Source: Bradyrhizobium sp. 139 (lineage in GTDB: Bacteria; Pseudomonadota; Alphaproteobacteria; Rhizobiales; Xanthobacteraceae). Taken from it: 64,000 nucleotides of DNA. The stretch lies in assembly GCF_023074175.1 (NCBI RefSeq), contig NZ_JADPKS010000126.1:1-64000 (forward strand), written 5' to 3'. A model generated the notes under the pieces. That model worked only from the letters and a program-made list of their open reading frames with translations. It made no database searches and was not told where the DNA came from. Below, in pieces: positions 45,216 to 51,579 of the stretch (positions are counted from its first letter, which is position 1; each line of letters opens with the position of its first letter). The position numbers and the translations under genes are program-made.

Positions 45216-46508
45216 TCAATTCGACGACCCGGCGGTCGCCATCCGTTTGGCCAGGAACCCGTCGATCGCCTGCGCCATCGAGCCCACGGCGCGGGATCGC
45301 CAGCCCTCGGACACCAGATGCTCGAGGTCGCCTTTGTTGGAGACATAGCCGATCTCGACCAGCACCGACGGAACATCCGGCGCCTTCAGGACCCGGAAGC
45401 CGGCTGATTTCAGCGGATGCTTATGCATCCGCACGGTCGACTTCATTTCGCCCATCAAGAAGCGGGCAAAACGGCTTGAAAAGGTGCGAGTTTCCCGCTG
45501 GGTAAGGTCGATCAGAATGTCGGCGACGTCGGTCGGCTCCTCCGCAAGGTTGAAACCGGCGATCGCATCCGCTCGGTTTTCCGCATCCGCCAGTCGCTGC
45601 GCCTCGGCGTCGGAGGCCTTGTCGGACAGCGTGTAAATGGTCGCGCCCTGCGCATCGCCCTCGGCGCGCGGCAACGCGTCGGCGTGGATCGAGACGAACA
45701 AGGCCGCCTTGAGCCCGCGGGCGACTTTGACCCGATCGTTGAGCGGAATGAAGGTGTCGTCGTCCCGTGTCATCACGACCCGGTATTTGCCGGTCTTTTC
45801 CAGCCGATCGCGCAGCGCCAGGCCAAAGGCCAGCACCAGGCTCTTCTCGCTCTCGCCGCCCGACTGCGTGCCGTTGTCGATGCCGCCATGGCCGGGATCG
45901 ATCACGACAATCGGGCGGCCGTCGGCCTTCTGCTGCGCGGCTTCCGGAGCTGCGGCGGCCGGAACTGTTGCGGGCGCGTCGGCGATGGCGGGCCGCAGTT
46001 CGGGGCGATTCTCAGGGGCGAGCGATTGCACGAAGGCGCTACGGTCGACCTCCTCCAGCTCGAGCACGAGCCGGGCCGGCTGGCCATTGGCGGCGTCCAG
46101 CACATAGGAATTGGCGATCTTGGCCGGGCCCGTCAGGTCGAACACGATTCGCGAGCCGCCGGGCATGACCAGCCCATAGCGGAAGGCCTTGACCAGTCCC
46201 CGCCCCCCCGTCCCGGTGCCCGCGGGCAGTTGAAAATTGACTTGGGGCACGTCGACCACCACCCGGTACGGGTCCGCGAGCGTGACGGCGCGGAAGGTGA
46301 CGGTCTGATCGATGTCGAGGATGAAGCGGGTCTGCTTGCCGTCGCCGGCCAGCCGAGCGGCCGAGGCGATCGGAAAATTTGCTACCGCAGCAGTGGGTTG
46401 TGCCTGACTTTCCGCCGCGCTCAGGCGCCAGGAATCAGCACACACCAATGCTGCGGCGCACAGCAGCACGCATCCCAGCAAAACCCTTTGATGTGTGCGG
46501 CTCGCCAC
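45216..46508 (-). CDS. amiC: N-acetylmuramoyl-L-alanine amidase (AmiC-like)
   Basis: A 430-residue periplasmic amidase that cuts stem peptides from septal peptidoglycan during cell separation. After a signal sequence (about residues 1-25) comes an AMIN domain (about 48-160), a Pro/Ala linker, then Amidase_3 from about 198. Zinc ligands and catalytic residues are intact: VIDPGHGG (His), GGESEK (Glu), SIHADAL (His) and VLVEIGYVSNKGD (Glu). AMIN domains target the septum in known homologues. The start is GTG at 46508, with GGAGG ten bases upstream. It is divergent from rne across a 704-base region, and followed by mrcA. Confidence 0.94.
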   Translation of the reverse strand: MASRTHQRVLLGCVLLCAAALVCADSWRLSAAESQAQPTAAVANFPIASAARLAGDGKQTRFILDIDQTVTFRAVTLADPYRVVVDVPQVNFQLPAGTGTGGRGLVKAFRYGLVMPGGSRIVFDLTGPAKIANSYVLDAANGQPARLVLELEEVDRSAFVQSLAPENRPELRPAIADAPATVPAAAAPEAAQQKADGRPIVVIDPGHGGIDNGTQSGGESEKSLVLAFGLALRDRLEKTGKYRVVMTRDDDTFIPLNDRVKVARGLKAALFVSIHADALPRAEGDAQGATIYTLSDKASDAEAQRLADAENRADAIAGFNLAEEPTDVADILIDLTQRETRTFSSRFARFLMGEMKSTVRMHKHPLKSAGFRVLKAPDVPSVLVEIGYVSNKGDLEHLVSEGWRSRAVGSMAQAIDGFLAKRMATAGSSN

Positions 46509-47212
46509 CGATGCCGTGCCTCCGAGCAGCTCTTTTAACGCAATAGAACCACAGGGTTAATCGATCCTTAATGACGGACACGCGAAACTTGCCGACTGTG
46601 ACCGCCCTGCGACGCTCCCTTGCACGGTCGGCCCATTCCACGTATGTACGGAATGCTGACGGCCGATATTTCCGGTTGTGTCGCATTCAGCCTCCCGGTG
46701 CAGCGCCGGAACTCTCAAGGTTTGGGAATTCCAGCGTTTTCCGTTCCCCTCAAAGACCAGCGCGGTGCGCGGCAGCGAGGTGGAGCGGGTTAAGCCCCGG
46801 TGGCGGACGGTCCCTGGTTACCACCGCGTTTCCGGGACGGTTTTGACAGCGACGTGACCCGTTACCCGGTCCCTTAATCCCAAGGGAGCGGTTCGTAATC
46901 TCCAAGGCGAGCGCGCTCGCGCCATGCCTGGCCAGCAGCAACTGATTGAGGGGCGGCCCCGCCGCCCAATGTTTCATACGGGCCGACGCTTGATGCGCCA
47001 GACTGTGCCGACGAATTCTGAAGGACCATTCGCGACGCTGCGGAGTGACAATCCCGCGCGCCGCTTCGGCCCTCCAGCTTCCGATTCGGCAAGGCGCGAG
47101 AGACGGCGTTTCGGCCTTCCCCTCACCCCCGAATCAGGTGGACCGTCGCGTCACCCGGCAGCGCAGATAGCGCCCACGGTGAATCGCGCCCGCCGCCGCC
47201 AAGAGTTAAGAC
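46509..47212. other. Long divergent region: amiC promoter and RNase E leader
   Basis: No protein gene is supported in these 704 bases; reading frames here lack ribosome sites and recognisable sequence. RNase E genes characteristically have long structured 5' leaders through which the enzyme represses its own synthesis. Visible structure includes GTCCC (46811-46815, approximate) pairing with GGGAC near 46835, and a perfect hairpin TCCCTT-AATCCC-AAGGGA (46870-46887). A TTGACA at 46843-46848 has no matching -10 at 17 bases. The leader promoter was not located. Confidence 0.5.
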
Positions 47213-50200
47213 ATGCCCAACAAGATGTTGATCGATGCCACCCACCCGGAGGAGACCCGGGTCGTCGTGGTCCGCGGCAATCGCGTCGAAGAGTTTGATT
47301 TCGAGACCGCGCAACGCAAGCAACTGCGCGGGAATATCTACCTCGCCAAGGTCACCCGGGTGGAGCCTTCGCTCCAGGCCGCCTTCGTCGAATATGGCGG
47401 CAACCGCCACGGCTTTCTCGCCTTCAGCGAAATCCATCCCGACTACTACCAGATCCCGGTCGCCGACCGGCAGGCGCTGATCGAGGCCGAGGAGCAGGCT
47501 CATCGCGAGGCCGAGGAAGAGAGCGAGAATCGCTCCCACGGCCGTCGCCGCTCGCGCCATCGCAACGCCCGCCGCCGTGGTCATGGCGAACGCGTCCGGA
47601 GCAACATCGTCGAAGGCGTTGCTGGCGCCGATCCCGCGGCCCAGCCGGTCGAGGACGACGTCCTTGCGGAGCACATCGAGGGCGCCCTGCACGAGGGTGA
47701 GAATCTGCACGCAGACGCTGAGCATCACGGCGAGCACGAAGCCCATGATCACCATGAACATGATCACCATGAACATGGACAAGACGATCATCACCACGCC
47801 CATGATGACGATCACCATCACACGCACGATCATGATGACCATGGCCATGAAAGCGGGCACGAACATCACGACCATGACCACGCCGGCGAAACCCCCGCGC
47901 CCGTCGCAGCCGTTGGCGCCGAACCCGTGGTCGCCGCCGAGCCGCAGGAGCCCGCCTCCTCCGAAGCGCATGCAGAGGCTCTGGCCGAAGCCGTGACCGC
48001 CGCCGCTGAACCGGCCGACGCCGTGTACGCGGCCGGCGAAAGCGCCGAGGCCCGGCATCACGAGTCCACCGAAGTCGAGGAAGACGACGAGGACGACGAA
48101 GAGGATGAAGAAGGCGAAGAGGAAATCGTCGAATCCGTCGGCGGCGACGACGTGCTTGAGGAAGTGCCGGAGCGCACGTTCCGCCCGCGCCGCCAGTACA
48201 AGATCCAGGAAGTCATCAAGCGCCGCCAGGTGATGCTGGTGCAGGTCGTCAAGGAAGAGCGCGGCAACAAGGGTGCGGCGCTGACGACCTATCTGTCGCT
48301 CGCCGGCCGCTACGCCGTGTTGATGCCGAACACCGCGCGCGGCGGCGGCATCAGCCGCAAGATCACGAGCGCCCAGGACCGTTCGCGCCTGAAGGAAGTG
48401 GTGCAGGATCTCGACGTGCCCGAAGGCATGGGCATCATCCTGCGCACCGCGGGCGCTGCCCGCACCAAGCCCGAGATCAAGCGCGACTTCGAATATCTGA
48501 TCCGGATGTGGGAGACGGTGCGCGACCTGACGCTGAAGTCGCAGGCCCCGACGCTGGTCTACGAAGAAGGCTCGCTGATCAAGCGCTCGCTGCGCGACCT
48601 CTACAACAAGGAGATCGACGAGATCTCGGTCGCCGGTGAATCCGGCTACCGCGAAGCGCGCGATTTCATGAAGATGCTGATGCCCGCCAATGTCAGTGCG
48701 GTGAAGCAGTATCGCGACGGGCAACCGCTGTTCTCGCGCATGGGCGTCGAAAGCCAGCTGGATGCGATGTTCTCGCCGACCGTGCAGCTGCGCTCCGGCG
48801 GCTATATCGTCATCAACCAGACCGAAGCGCTGGTCTCGATCGACGTCAACTCCGGCCGTTCGACCCGCGAGCACCACATCGAGGACACCGCGCTCAAGAC
48901 CAATCTGGAAGCGTCCGAAGAGGTCGCCCGCCAGCTCCGCCTGCGCGACCTCGCCGGCCTGATCGTCATCGACTTCATCGACATGGACGAGAAGCGCAAC
49001 AACCGTGCAGTCGAGCGCAAGCTGTCCGATTGCCTCCGGCAGGATCGCGCCCGCATCCAGGTCGGTCGCATCTCGCATTTCGGCCTGCTCGAGATGTCGC
49101 GCCAGCGCATCCGCGCCAGCGTGCTGGAATCCTCGACCGATCCCTGCCCGCATTGCGGCGGCACCGGCCATGTCCGCTCGGTGTCTTCGGTTGCGCTGCA
49201 GCTGCTGCGCGGCCTCGAAGAGATCCTGATGAAGGGCGCGACCCACAATCTCGTGGTCCGCACCCGCACCGACGTCGCGCTCTATGTGCTGAACCACAAG
49301 CGCGGCCATCTGCGCGACCTCGAGAACGGCTTCAAGGTCACGCTGTCCGTCATCGCCGACCCCAGCGTCAGCGGACCGCAGGCCTATCTGATCGACCGCG
49401 GCGAGCAGGTGCATACGCTGGAAGCCGCCAAGGCGCTGCTGATGGCACAGGCTGCCGCAAGCCCGCCGCCTGTGGCCGAAGAGGCGTTTGACGGCGAGGA
49501 GTTCGATCCGGAGTTGGAATCCGAGGTCGAGACCGAGGAGACCGAAGGTCTCGCCGAGGAGCAGCCTGCCGGCGAAGCCGTCTCCGAGCAAGACGGCCAG
49601 CGCCGCAAGCGCCGCCGTCGCCGGCGCAGCCGCGGGGGCCAGCGCGACGGCGAGTTGCGCGAGGACGGTGCTCCGACGTCGCCCGAAGCGACCGTGGCGG
49701 CTAGTGAAGGTGAAGAGGACGCCGAGTCCGAGCAGGACGGCGAGGAAGGCGAGGACCAGGCAGCCCGCGGCGAGCAGCAGGGCAGCGCCGATCGCCGCCG
49801 CCGGCGGGGTCGTCGTGGTGGACGCCGCCGTCGCGGTGGCAACGAGGAAGGTCTCGCCGGCTCCATCGGCGACGAGCTCGCAGCCAATGCTCCGTCGGAA
49901 GCCACGGACGCCGTCGCCGATTTCGACAGCCTTGGCAGCGAGGCTGCGCCCTCGATCGCGCAGGCCGAACACACCACCGAGCCTCAGGTCAGCCAGCCCG
50001 AGCCGCGCGCCGAGGTGCAGATTGAGGCGCCGGCCCAGCCTGAGCCCGCTCCTGCTGCCGCGGAAGAAGAGCCCGCCGACGACAAGGCTGCGCGCCGTCG
50101 CTCCACGGTCCGGGAAAAGGTGAGCTTCCCGTCGAGCAGCCAGAGCGAGCCCGCGGCGCAGGCACCCGACCCGGTTGCTCCGCCCGTGCCGGCTCCGGAG

Positions 50201-50281
50201 CCCACGCCGGAAGCGGCAAGAGAAACGTCGGCACCGCGGCGTGCCGGCTGGTGGTCGCGGCGCTTCGGCGGCGGCGAATAA
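47213..50281 (+). CDS. rne: Ribonuclease E
   Basis: Endoribonuclease E/G family, 1022 residues; it starts mRNA decay and processes rRNA and tRNA. The S1 domain begins at about residue 36 (GNIYLAKVTRVEPSLQAAFVEYG) but is split by an insertion of about 240 residues (85-328) that contains a His/Asp-rich core (160-224). S1 resumes at RRQYKIQEVIKRRQVMLVQVVKEERGNKGAALT. The DNase I-like catalytic region has SIDVNSGRSTREH and VIDFIDMDEKRN (metal-binding Asp residues). The Zn-link is CPHCGGTGHV. The C-terminal 270 residues are acidic with Arg blocks (RRKRRRRRRSRGG), a degradosome scaffold/RNA-binding tail. A strong terminator follows. Confidence 0.95.
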   Translation: MPNKMLIDATHPEETRVVVVRGNRVEEFDFETAQRKQLRGNIYLAKVTRVEPSLQAAFVEYGGNRHGFLAFSEIHPDYYQIPVADRQALIEAEEQAHREAEEESENRSHGRRRSRHRNARRRGHGERVRSNIVEGVAGADPAAQPVEDDVLAEHIEGALHEGENLHADAEHHGEHEAHDHHEHDHHEHGQDDHHHAHDDDHHHTHDHDDHGHESGHEHHDHDHAGETPAPVAAVGAEPVVAAEPQEPASSEAHAEALAEAVTAAAEPADAVYAAGESAEARHHESTEVEEDDEDDEEDEEGEEEIVESVGGDDVLEEVPERTFRPRRQYKIQEVIKRRQVMLVQVVKEERGNKGAALTTYLSLAGRYAVLMPNTARGGGISRKITSAQDRSRLKEVVQDLDVPEGMGIILRTAGAARTKPEIKRDFEYLIRMWETVRDLTLKSQAPTLVYEEGSLIKRSLRDLYNKEIDEISVAGESGYREARDFMKMLMPANVSAVKQYRDGQPLFSRMGVESQLDAMFSPTVQLRSGGYIVINQTEALVSIDVNSGRSTREHHIEDTALKTNLEASEEVARQLRLRDLAGLIVIDFIDMDEKRNNRAVERKLSDCLRQDRARIQVGRISHFGLLEMSRQRIRASVLESSTDPCPHCGGTGHVRSVSSVALQLLRGLEEILMKGATHNLVVRTRTDVALYVLNHKRGHLRDLENGFKVTLSVIADPSVSGPQAYLIDRGEQVHTLEAAKALLMAQAAASPPPVAEEAFDGEEFDPELESEVETEETEGLAEEQPAGEAVSEQDGQRRKRRRRRRSRGGQRDGELREDGAPTSPEATVAASEGEEDAESEQDGEEGEDQAARGEQQGSADRRRRRGRRGGRRRRGGNEEGLAGSIGDELAANAPSEATDAVADFDSLGSEAAPSIAQAEHTTEPQVSQPEPRAEVQIEAPAQPEPAPAAAEEEPADDKAARRRSTVREKVSFPSSSQSEPAAQAPDPVAPPVPAPEPTPEAARETSAPRRAGWWSRRFGGGE
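47744..47773 (+). repeat. In-frame 15-bp tandem duplication in rne insertion
   Basis: CATGATCACCATGAA occurs twice in perfect tandem (47744-47758 and 47759-47773), encoding HDHHE twice. The surrounding 130 bases are far less GC-rich than the rest of the gene. Confidence 0.85.
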
Positions 50282-50297
50282 AACGGAAATCCAGTTG

Positions 50298-50326
50298 AAA
50301 CCGCCCGGTCAAACCGGGCGGTTTTG
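50298..50326 (+). terminator. Rho-independent terminator of rne
   Basis: An 11-bp perfect stem (AAACCGCCCGG with CCGGGCGGTTT), a 5-base loop and a T run, 17 bases after the rne stop. Confidence 0.93.
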
Positions 50327-50346
50327 ATTTGGCGAGGTCACCTCTG

Positions 50347-51579
50347 ATGCGAAGTGCAATTGTTCTCGGCGGCGGCATGGTGGGCGTGGGCGCGGCGCTG
50401 CATTTGCAGCGGCGCGGCTGGACCGTCACCCTCGTCGATCGCAGGGAGCCGGGCCGCGAGACCAGCTACGGCAATGCCGGAATGATCCAGGCGGAAGCCG
50501 TGCGGCCCTATCCGATGCCGCGTGACCTCGCCACACTGTTGAAGATCGCGACCGGCCGCACCAACGACGTACGCTACAGCCTGTCGTCGCTTCACCTCCA
50601 TGTCGAGCCGCTGCTTCGCTATTGGTGGCATTCGGCGCCGAAGCGGCATCGCGAAGCGATCGAGGCATGGGCGCGCCTGATCGCCTACGCGACGGGCGAG
50701 CACGACGTCCTCATTCGCGAGGCCCATGCCGACAATCTCATCCGCCGCGCCGGCTATCGCATGCTGCATCGCGACGCCGCCTCCTTCGACCTCGCGGTCA
50801 AGACCGCGGAGGAAGACCAGCGCGAATTCGGTGTGAACTTTCGCGTGCTGTCAGGCAGCGAGCTCGCCAAGGCCGAGCCGATCCTGCGCGACGATCTGCC
50901 TGGCGCCATCCATTGGCTCGACACCTGGACCGTGTCCGATCCCGGCGCGCTGGTCACGGCCTATGCTGATTTGTTCGAGCGCCTCGGCGGCACCCTTTTG
51001 CTTGGTGATGCCCAGACCTTGCAGCAGACCGCGACGGGCTGGTCGGTCGATACCGACAACGGACGCATCGACGCCGCCGCAGCCGTCGTGACGCTCGGGC
51101 CGTGGTCGCCCGATCTCCTGCATAAGTTCGGCTATCGCATCCCGCTGGTGCGCAAGCGCGGCTACCACATGCATTACAGCGGCGGCGCTTCACTCGATCT
51201 GCCGCTGGTCGACAAGGGCGGCGGCTACGCCATGGGGCCGATGGCCAAGGGCATCCGCATCACCACGGGTGCCGAGCTGACCGGCCCGGACGCGCTCGCA
51301 ACACCGGTGCAGCTCGCCAGCGCCGAAGCCTCCGCACGCGAGCTGATCGACCTCGGCAGGCGCGTCGAGCCGGATCCATGGTTCGGCACGAGACCCTGCA
51401 CGCCCGACATGCTCCCGGTGCTCGGTCCCGCTCCGCGTCACCCCGGCCTCTGGATGAATTTCGGCCACGGTCACCAGGGCTTTACGCTCGGGCCCGCGAC
51501 AGGCCGCCTGCTCGCCGAGATGATGAGCGGCGAGACACCGGCGATCGATCCCGCGCCGTATCGGCCTGAGCGCTTTTAG
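50347..51579 (+). CDS. FAD-dependent amine/D-amino-acid oxidoreductase (DadA-like)
   Basis: A 410-residue flavoprotein of the DAO/DadA family. The N-terminus AIVLGGGMVGVGAALHLQRRGWTVTLVDRREPG contains the GxGxxG FAD loop (GGGMVG) and the ribose-binding acid. The C-terminus has GTRPCTPDMLPVLGPAPRHPGLWMNFGHGHQGFTLGPATGRLLAEM, the family's flavin-binding end. DadA-like enzymes oxidatively deaminate D-amino acids or secondary amines, passing electrons to the respiratory chain. The ATG at 50347 is preferred because it opens directly on the fold. It lies 20 bases after the rne terminator and is alone on its strand. Confidence 0.88.
   Translation: MRSAIVLGGGMVGVGAALHLQRRGWTVTLVDRREPGRETSYGNAGMIQAEAVRPYPMPRDLATLLKIATGRTNDVRYSLSSLHLHVEPLLRYWWHSAPKRHREAIEAWARLIAYATGEHDVLIREAHADNLIRRAGYRMLHRDAASFDLAVKTAEEDQREFGVNFRVLSGSELAKAEPILRDDLPGAIHWLDTWTVSDPGALVTAYADLFERLGGTLLLGDAQTLQQTATGWSVDTDNGRIDAAAAVVTLGPWSPDLLHKFGYRIPLVRKRGYHMHYSGGASLDLPLVDKGGGYAMGPMAKGIRITTGAELTGPDALATPVQLASAEASARELIDLGRRVEPDPWFGTRPCTPDMLPVLGPAPRHPGLWMNFGHGHQGFTLGPATGRLLAEMMSGETPAIDPAPYRPERF

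Follow-up and report, generated by a model that had tools for sequence, protein, structure and literature searches.

A selected His/Asp-rich extension of the RNase E S1 insert in Bradyrhizobium and related genera suggests a tie between RNA breakdown and metal levels

Introduction

Acidic, disordered inserts in the S1 domain of alphaproteobacterial RNase E have already been published (PMC4245959). As described in the accessible excerpts of that study, the insert in the Caulobacter crystal structure is partly helical and partly not visible, it protrudes with acidic residues into the predicted RNA site, which a helix enters, and the catalytic domain is where RhlB binds, in a range (residues 1-274) that includes the insert. 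Contact between RNase E and metal has been reported as well: in the portions available from Passos et al. 2025 (PMC12510024), a construct of Caulobacter RNase E(451-898) binds Cu(II) with one His per site, RNase E condensates protect PNPase from Cu, and the Zn-link motif of RNase E is described. In Caulobacter and Sinorhizobium, RNase E is known to form condensates, which the accessible text of PMC12691583 ascribes to the C-terminal disordered tail and not to S1.

For proteins with dense His tracts, an excerpted review (PMC7055735) gives 24 His for HypB of B. japonicum, which binds 9 Ni per monomer with a Kd of 2.3 uM and also Zn, Cu and Co. According to the same excerpts, urease activation in Klebsiella does not depend on the His-rich tail of UreE; metal binding by a His tail thus need not mean that the tail is required. 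Neither a report of a His-rich RNase E nor a metal measurement for the protein described here was present among the literature matches listed, which mostly covered subscription-free papers.

Here, we describe the RNase E encoded in the window (the whole 64,000-nucleotide stretch of Bradyrhizobium sp. 139 DNA that was analysed), which carries a lineage-specific, selected His/Asp-rich extension of the known acidic, disordered S1 insert. The proposal that this tract binds metal is weighed against explanations based on charge, pH, protein docking and neutral expansion.

Results and discussion

The S1 domain of the window's RNase E is split by a 244-residue insert

The features on which the analysis rests are as follows.

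47213..50281, + strand: rne, RNase E, 1022 aa (open reading frame; Pfam RNase_E_G, 2e-99, and RNase_E_G_Thio; TIGR00757)
47318..47458, + strand: first half of the S1 domain, residues ~36-82 (Pfam S1 match; PDB alignment)
47459..48190, + strand: S1 insert, residues 83-326, 244 aa (PDB alignment, composition)
47459..47575, + strand: start of the insert, predicted helix, residues 83-121, VADRQALIEAEE... (AlphaFold2)
47531..47599, + strand: Arg-rich stretch, residues 107-129 (sequence)
47723..47881, + strand: His/Asp tract, residues 171-223, 26 His in 53 residues (composition)
48071..48124, + strand: acidic block, residues ~287-304 (sequence)
48128..48175, + strand: conserved motif VESVGGDDVLEEVPER at the end of the insert, residues 306-321 (loose pattern)
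48191..48307, + strand: second half of the S1 domain, YKIQEVIKRRQVMLVQVVKEE... (PDB alignment; end boundary approximate)
49145..49156, + strand: CPHC Zn-link, residues 645-648 (sequence)
49421..50278, + strand: C-terminal tail of RNase E, 286 residues (737-1022), with 1 His only

The rne product contains the RNase E/G catalytic domain with its Zn-link (Pfam, TIGR00757, alignment), in which C645 and C648 are invariant across 50 aligned sequences. Four related loci (L001-L004), all Bradyrhizobium, share a catalytic stretch of 406 aa identical to that of the window. Upstream of rne and on the opposite strand lie amiC and then a gene for a penicillin-binding protein with transglycosylase, and the downstream neighbour encodes an FAD-dependent oxidoreductase; metal genes were absent among these three neighbours. 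The amiC gene adjoins rne in 77 of 80 related loci, and two of the three loci without it (L048, L068) end early on the upstream side.

Pfam S1 matched residues 40-81 only, with 20.2 bits and thus slightly below the family cut-off of 22, and the insert was delimited by phmmer comparison with solved structures. Residues 1-93 and 293-396 aligned with Caulobacter RNase E (4oxp) and residues 4-80 and 329-395 with E. coli RNase E (5f6c), the gap between the matched stretches being 8 residues in 5f6c versus 248 in the window's protein. Because the matches to both structures split there, the insert was set at residues 83-326, within two residues of the 85-328 given in an earlier note on this DNA, whose reading of an S1 domain interrupted by ~240 residues thereby stands. 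That note had also placed a His/Asp-rich core at residues 160-224, and these 65 residues do hold 28 His, 13 Asp and 9 Glu; its acidic block (288-303) is likewise present in the sequence, and its statement that inserts occur at the same S1 site in other alphaproteobacteria agrees with the accessible part of PMC4245959 and with the survey below.

In total the insert comprises 36 His, 48 Glu, 25 Asp (73 Asp plus Glu) and 17 Arg, giving a net charge of -56 when His is not counted. From its start it runs through the start helix, the Arg-rich stretch (with R113, R115 and R117 nearly invariant among 50 aligned sequences), a variable part, the His/Asp tract, which is the densest His part of the insert, an Ala/Pro/Glu linker, the acidic block and VESVGGDDVLEEVPER, after which S1 resumes. 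It resembles the S1 inserts of alphaproteobacterial and plant RNase E as represented by Caulobacter 4OXP in the excerpts available, sharing their S1 position, charge, partly disordered and partly helical character and alignable ends. The 244 aa of the window's insert compare with 50-150 aa stated for S1 inserts in the accessible text of PMC4245959; in our class sample S1 inserts span 42-412 aa, so we take the published limits to be set too narrowly and not to mark a true boundary. A further difference is the His/Asp tract, which goes unmentioned for S1 inserts in the same excerpts.

The position of the His also differs from that in the Cu-binding Caulobacter enzyme. As far as the available text of PMC12510024 goes, the Cu-binding construct 451-898 (Zn-link, small domain and tail) lacks S1 and uses one His per Cu, whereas the His cluster of the window's protein lies in S1 and its residues 737-1022 hold a single His. 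The Cu-binding His of the Caulobacter protein may sit in the small domain. What the two proteins would share is an RNase E acting as a metal-binding scaffold through His, which is proposed here for the window's RNase E by analogy.

Structure models agree with a disordered insert and a start helix

Two AlphaFold2 models were generated from alignments of 50 close and 104 wider sequences, with pTM values of 0.28 and 0.46, respectively. Nearly all of residues 124-319 had pLDDT values below 50, and the best values in the insert were those of residues 81-120 (block means of 62, 86, 84 and 60); the start helix was also present in the first model, at residues 83-111. As the models are weak overall and S1 itself was poorly modelled, we draw on them solely to back the disorder of the insert and its start helix, two features that agree with the Caulobacter crystal structure as described in the accessible part of PMC4245959. 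The insert is highly charged and predicted to be disordered, the latter mainly on the grounds of its composition.

The His tract is a lineage trait on a generally acidic insert

Conservation of the insert was followed in a named set of 80 loci plus the window, in which 79 inserts were readable; the other two, L043 and L048, contain 22 His in another reading and a cut-off but visibly His-rich insert, respectively. The clade of interest (Bradyrhizobium, Afipia, Rhodopseudomonas, Nitrobacter and allied MAGs) comprises 63 rows with an SH-aLRT of 99. Using a threshold of at least 8 His per 40 aa, 58 of the 62 readable clade inserts were His-dense, as were 44 of the 45 from the window and 44 Bradyrhizobium-labelled loci (L076 left out). 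The comparison of His content across relatives that the earlier note had suggested thus finds close relatives His-rich, contrary to the first half of the refutation that the note had set out (an insertion absent or poor in His there), and a single-strain oddity or chance is ruled out by the presence of the tract across the clade. The inserts under the threshold were L059 (4 per 40), L039 and L054 (both 7) and L057 (0; of mixed origin). In 60 clade inserts (without L057 and L076), the median length was 246.5 and the median His count 31 (8-45). The 17 inserts outside the clade had 1-17 His, with L065, L077 and L078 reaching 8 per 40.

A wider survey found the N-terminal stretch in 375 of 385 class, 147 of 150 order and 191 of 198 family genomes. 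From these, 203 loci were taken and 194 inserts read (nine were unreadable), of which five are identical to named-locus inserts, so that the two sets overlap. The survey loci were the best-scoring 30 of each search plus chosen ones, mostly one per family or genus; being non-random, they yield counts that are not unbiased frequencies, with at least 8 His per 40 in 10/10 inserts of the same genus, 24/59 of other genera of the family (clade members included), 1/64 of other families of the order and 3/61 of the rest of the class. Median His counts were 34 for genus, 13 for family, 2 for order and 1 for class. The median net charge per residue (Asp, Glu, Arg, Lys) stayed at -0.20 to -0.22 from genus through class whatever the His content, which makes the acidic character a wider property than His.

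This constancy of charge favours the main rival to metal binding, namely that charge and disorder alone matter: the insert would cover the RNA channel purely as a disordered brush of acidic residues or a mimic of RNA, as the acidic Caulobacter insert occupies the RNA site in the excerpts of PMC4245959, with His as tolerated filler and any metal binding incidental. It leaves unexplained, on the other hand, the dense cluster in nearly all clade inserts and the clumping of rare His in separate lineages. In the 119 of 125 order and class inserts with at least 60 aa, His was rare (1.8%) yet clumped, the top clusters reaching 14, 13 and 11 per 40, compared with no more than 5 (Asn, Ile) or 8 (Lys) for control residues of similar frequency. 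We regard the filler explanation as somewhat unlikely.

Parsimony on a tree of 219 rows traced the cluster to one gain at the root of a clade of 49 rows, 42 of which have it, and to seven other gains, among them L118, L172 and L109 plus L143 outside the family, along with six losses; the gain count is rough because the sequences are 180-262 residues long, the tree search was quick and five duplicates are included. The His tract is thus a lineage trait atop a general acidic insert, and parsimony suggests a few further independent gains. The His/Asp clusters of L109, L143, L172 and L118 belong to distant alphaproteobacterial lineages and seem to be of separate origin.

The motif at the end of the insert (VESVGGxDALEEVPER) is kept far more widely than the His tract, as a loose pattern found it in 10/10 genus, 58/59 family, 55/64 order and 29/61 class inserts. 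It may be a docking site or an acidic RNA mimic. An extended form of the former idea is that both conserved ends, the helix of residues 83-121 and this motif, hold RhlB or another degradosome protein, with the His middle as a spacer. The location of RhlB binding in Caulobacter, within residues 1-274 in the available text of PMC4245959, is in keeping with this, as is the conservation of the insert ends, but not the middle, across the order. Docking accounts for the ends and not for His, however, and is compatible with metal binding by the tract; as the explanation of the insert we consider it unlikely.

His codons are constrained, less strongly than in UreE

The codon test used 58 eligible inserts (at least 18 His plus the ESVGG motif), excluding L057 and L076, the latter having its frame broken after the catalytic core. 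Of 21 disjoint pairs, three with an insert identity of 0.58 or less were dropped, and His codons in dense stretches of the remaining 18 strain pairs were compared at ungapped columns of nucleotide alignments. Among 342 His comparisons, 194 codons were identical and 61 synonymous (255 kept His, 75%), and changes included 37 to Asp (27 one-base), 9 to Gln, 5 one-base to Arg and 4 one-base to Tyr. Expectations from fourfold sites of the same genes were 24-38 one-base His-to-Tyr changes, compared with the 4 observed, and 32-34 one-base His-to-Asp changes, compared with 27 observed, where alignment in such tracts is uncertain and could inflate His-Asp pairs. With Tyr far below and Asp near expectation, loss to Tyr is selected against and exchange with Asp is nearly free. 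Fourfold sites with A are rare and biased; since the expectations for Arg, Pro and Leu depend on them, weight was placed on the Tyr and Asp figures alone.

All 139 His codons compared in the catalytic domain were kept. As a yardstick for metal-binding tails, we used the His-rich UreE tails of the genus (match in 39 of 40 genomes; 29 of 30 loci readable; 13 pairs), which kept His in 307 of 340 comparisons (90%), with no change to Tyr; the UreE filter was by tail position, unlike the density filter used for Rne. Synonymous divergence was similar (81/307 for UreE and 61/255 for Rne), so the difference between 90% and 75% of His kept indicates that the Rne tract is constrained, less so than the UreE tail. 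This weaker constraint, the near-neutral exchange of His with Asp and the frequent exchange of Asp with Glu in the insert (82 single-base cases) again favour an acidic brush with His as filler, which leaves the avoidance of Tyr unexplained.

The same data bear on a neutral simple-sequence expansion of CAT and GAT codons without function. Traces in its favour are a short tandem unit left in the tract, where TRF reported only 2.3 copies of a 15-bp unit and an overlapping weak 9-bp array, a G+C content of 0.528 in the tract versus 0.673 in the whole gene, and insert lengths that vary among strains. Such an expansion would leave His-to-Tyr and His-to-Arg changes at about the synonymous rate, yet the codon test showed synonymous changes far above one-base changes to Tyr and Arg; CAT and CAC are about equally used in inserts with at least 18 His (920 and 891), and the trait spans a clade of several genera. 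We therefore consider neutral origin without function very improbable. A simple DNA repeat today is mostly rejected by the TRF result and by the mixed His codons of the tract (14 CAT, 12 CAC). An RNA-level element was rejected as well: Rfam had no match at gathering score in 46000-51000, and synonymous changes at 61 of the 255 retained His codons are frequent enough to give no sign of nucleotide-level constraint in the tract.

Other His/Asp-dense proteins of the genome mostly handle metals

Legume symbionts and their relatives use nickel hydrogenases, ureases and copper enzymes. A genome search for six His or Asp codons in a row found 86 places, versus 21 for a control pattern, and 81 of the 86 were read in context, the remaining five being Asp-dominated. 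Four places fall in the rne His/Asp tract. The pattern sees His/Asp runs only and would miss other styles of His-rich protein. Thirteen open frames had at least 8 His per 40 around the run, namely Rne, eight that were given to Pfam and four short ones. Seven of the eight matched a Pfam family and one had no match. Per 40 residues, Rne has 20 His, compared with 23 in UreE, 21 in a NicO nickel transport protein, 19 in a cation efflux protein, 16 in a CobW/HypB/UreG frame (L295) that we read as HypB, 14 in a CobW protein (L325), 10 in the Pfam-unmatched frame, 9 in a nitrile hydratase alpha subunit and 8 in a cupin. Thus, five of the eight classified dense frames belong to families handling Ni, Co or Zn, the rest being the nitrile hydratase, the cupin and the unmatched frame, and among the Pfam-matched dense frames Rne is the odd one out.

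The Rne tract is like those of Bradyrhizobium HypB (nickelin) and UreE in its similar His density, its low complexity and its mixing with Asp. Unlike them, it lies inside an RNA-cutting enzyme, in which Pfam found no G3E GTPase or UreE domain, and it differs further from UreE in its weaker His constraint and frequent Asp-Glu exchange. This likeness of the tract to metal-handling proteins suggests, without proving it, that RNA breakdown is tied to metal levels.

The intermixing of His with acidic residues could also serve a tuner of pH or condensation without metals, in which protonation of His upon acidification cancels acidic charge and alters BR-bodies or RNA access. His is mixed among Asp and Glu in a polymer with a net charge of -56, His-His neighbours are fewer than in shuffles (8 versus 12.3, p ~0.02), and RNase E condensates are known from Caulobacter and Sinorhizobium. 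Yet condensation there is ascribed to the C-terminal tail and not to S1 (PMC12691583, accessible text), and most of the proteins of similar composition that were tested from this genome handle metals, which leaves a pH tuner quite improbable in our judgement.

A metal buffer at the RNA entrance is the tentatively preferred reading

By analogy with the proteins above, the insert is probably not only an acidic gate close to the RNA channel but, in this lineage, also a binding site for several metal ions. The reading we prefer joins two layers. A disordered, strongly acidic S1 insert beside the RNA-binding site is common to alphaproteobacterial RNase E, and in the clade of Bradyrhizobium, Afipia and Rhodopseudomonas the insert, ~245 residues long, additionally has a His/Asp tract like those of metallochaperones, which selection maintains. 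In each subunit, the tract may bind several ions of Zn, Ni, Co or Cu with micromolar affinity, as does the similar tract of Bradyrhizobium HypB. RNase E would then have a buffer or sponge for metals where RNA enters, and so would the degradosome, whose enzymes it could shield from wrong metals. Less surely, filling with metal might neutralise part of the acidic insert and cross-link subunits, and RNA access or condensation might then change at high metal. We hold the joint reading, an acidic S1 insert plus a selected His/Asp metal tract acting as a buffer at the RNA entrance, tentatively and at a little short of an even chance.

Metal binding, the idea already put forward in the earlier note, is backed indirectly by the metal-protein company of the tract, the constraint on its His codons, its probable repeated origin and Cu binding by Caulobacter RNase E. 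It is weakened by His being only moderately held, by the near neutrality of His-to-Asp changes and by charge being conserved more widely than His. The four clade inserts under the threshold, the six parsimony losses and the non-metal neighbour genes also speak against it. A stronger version, in which RNase E itself is metal-responsive, appears rather unlikely to us: filling of the tract with Ni, Zn, Co or Cu would switch the charge of the S1 gate and cross-link tetramers, and global mRNA decay and degradosome condensation would then follow free metal directly, with no transcription factor in between.

Should metal binding by the tract occur in vivo, these bacteria would have a housekeeping enzyme of RNA decay that also serves to buffer or sense metal. 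The contact with metal reported for Caulobacter RNase E would then have a natural and much exaggerated counterpart. In practical work, RNase E from these genera would call for care in His-tag purification and in assays of metal-dependent condensation, even when it is untagged.

Minor observations

Antisense to rne, an open frame of 949 aa runs over 47123-49972 on the - strand. It was rejected as a real gene, having no Pfam match, and is probably a shadow of the G+C-rich gene.

Locus L057 (5311-8154), on a MAG contig labelled Paracoccaceae, encodes an RNase E of mixed origin. Its first ~230 residues and its insert resemble those of another family, with 76-78% identity in the part ahead of the insert, and its catalytic part after the insert is 90-100% like that of the Bradyrhizobiaceae locus L054; amiC was not found in this locus. 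The protein reflects either recombination or an assembly chimera.

Short His/Asp-rich N-termini occur in the same genome in the cupin protein (L330, 1224-1769, - strand) and in the nitrile hydratase alpha subunit (L319, 1617-2336, + strand).
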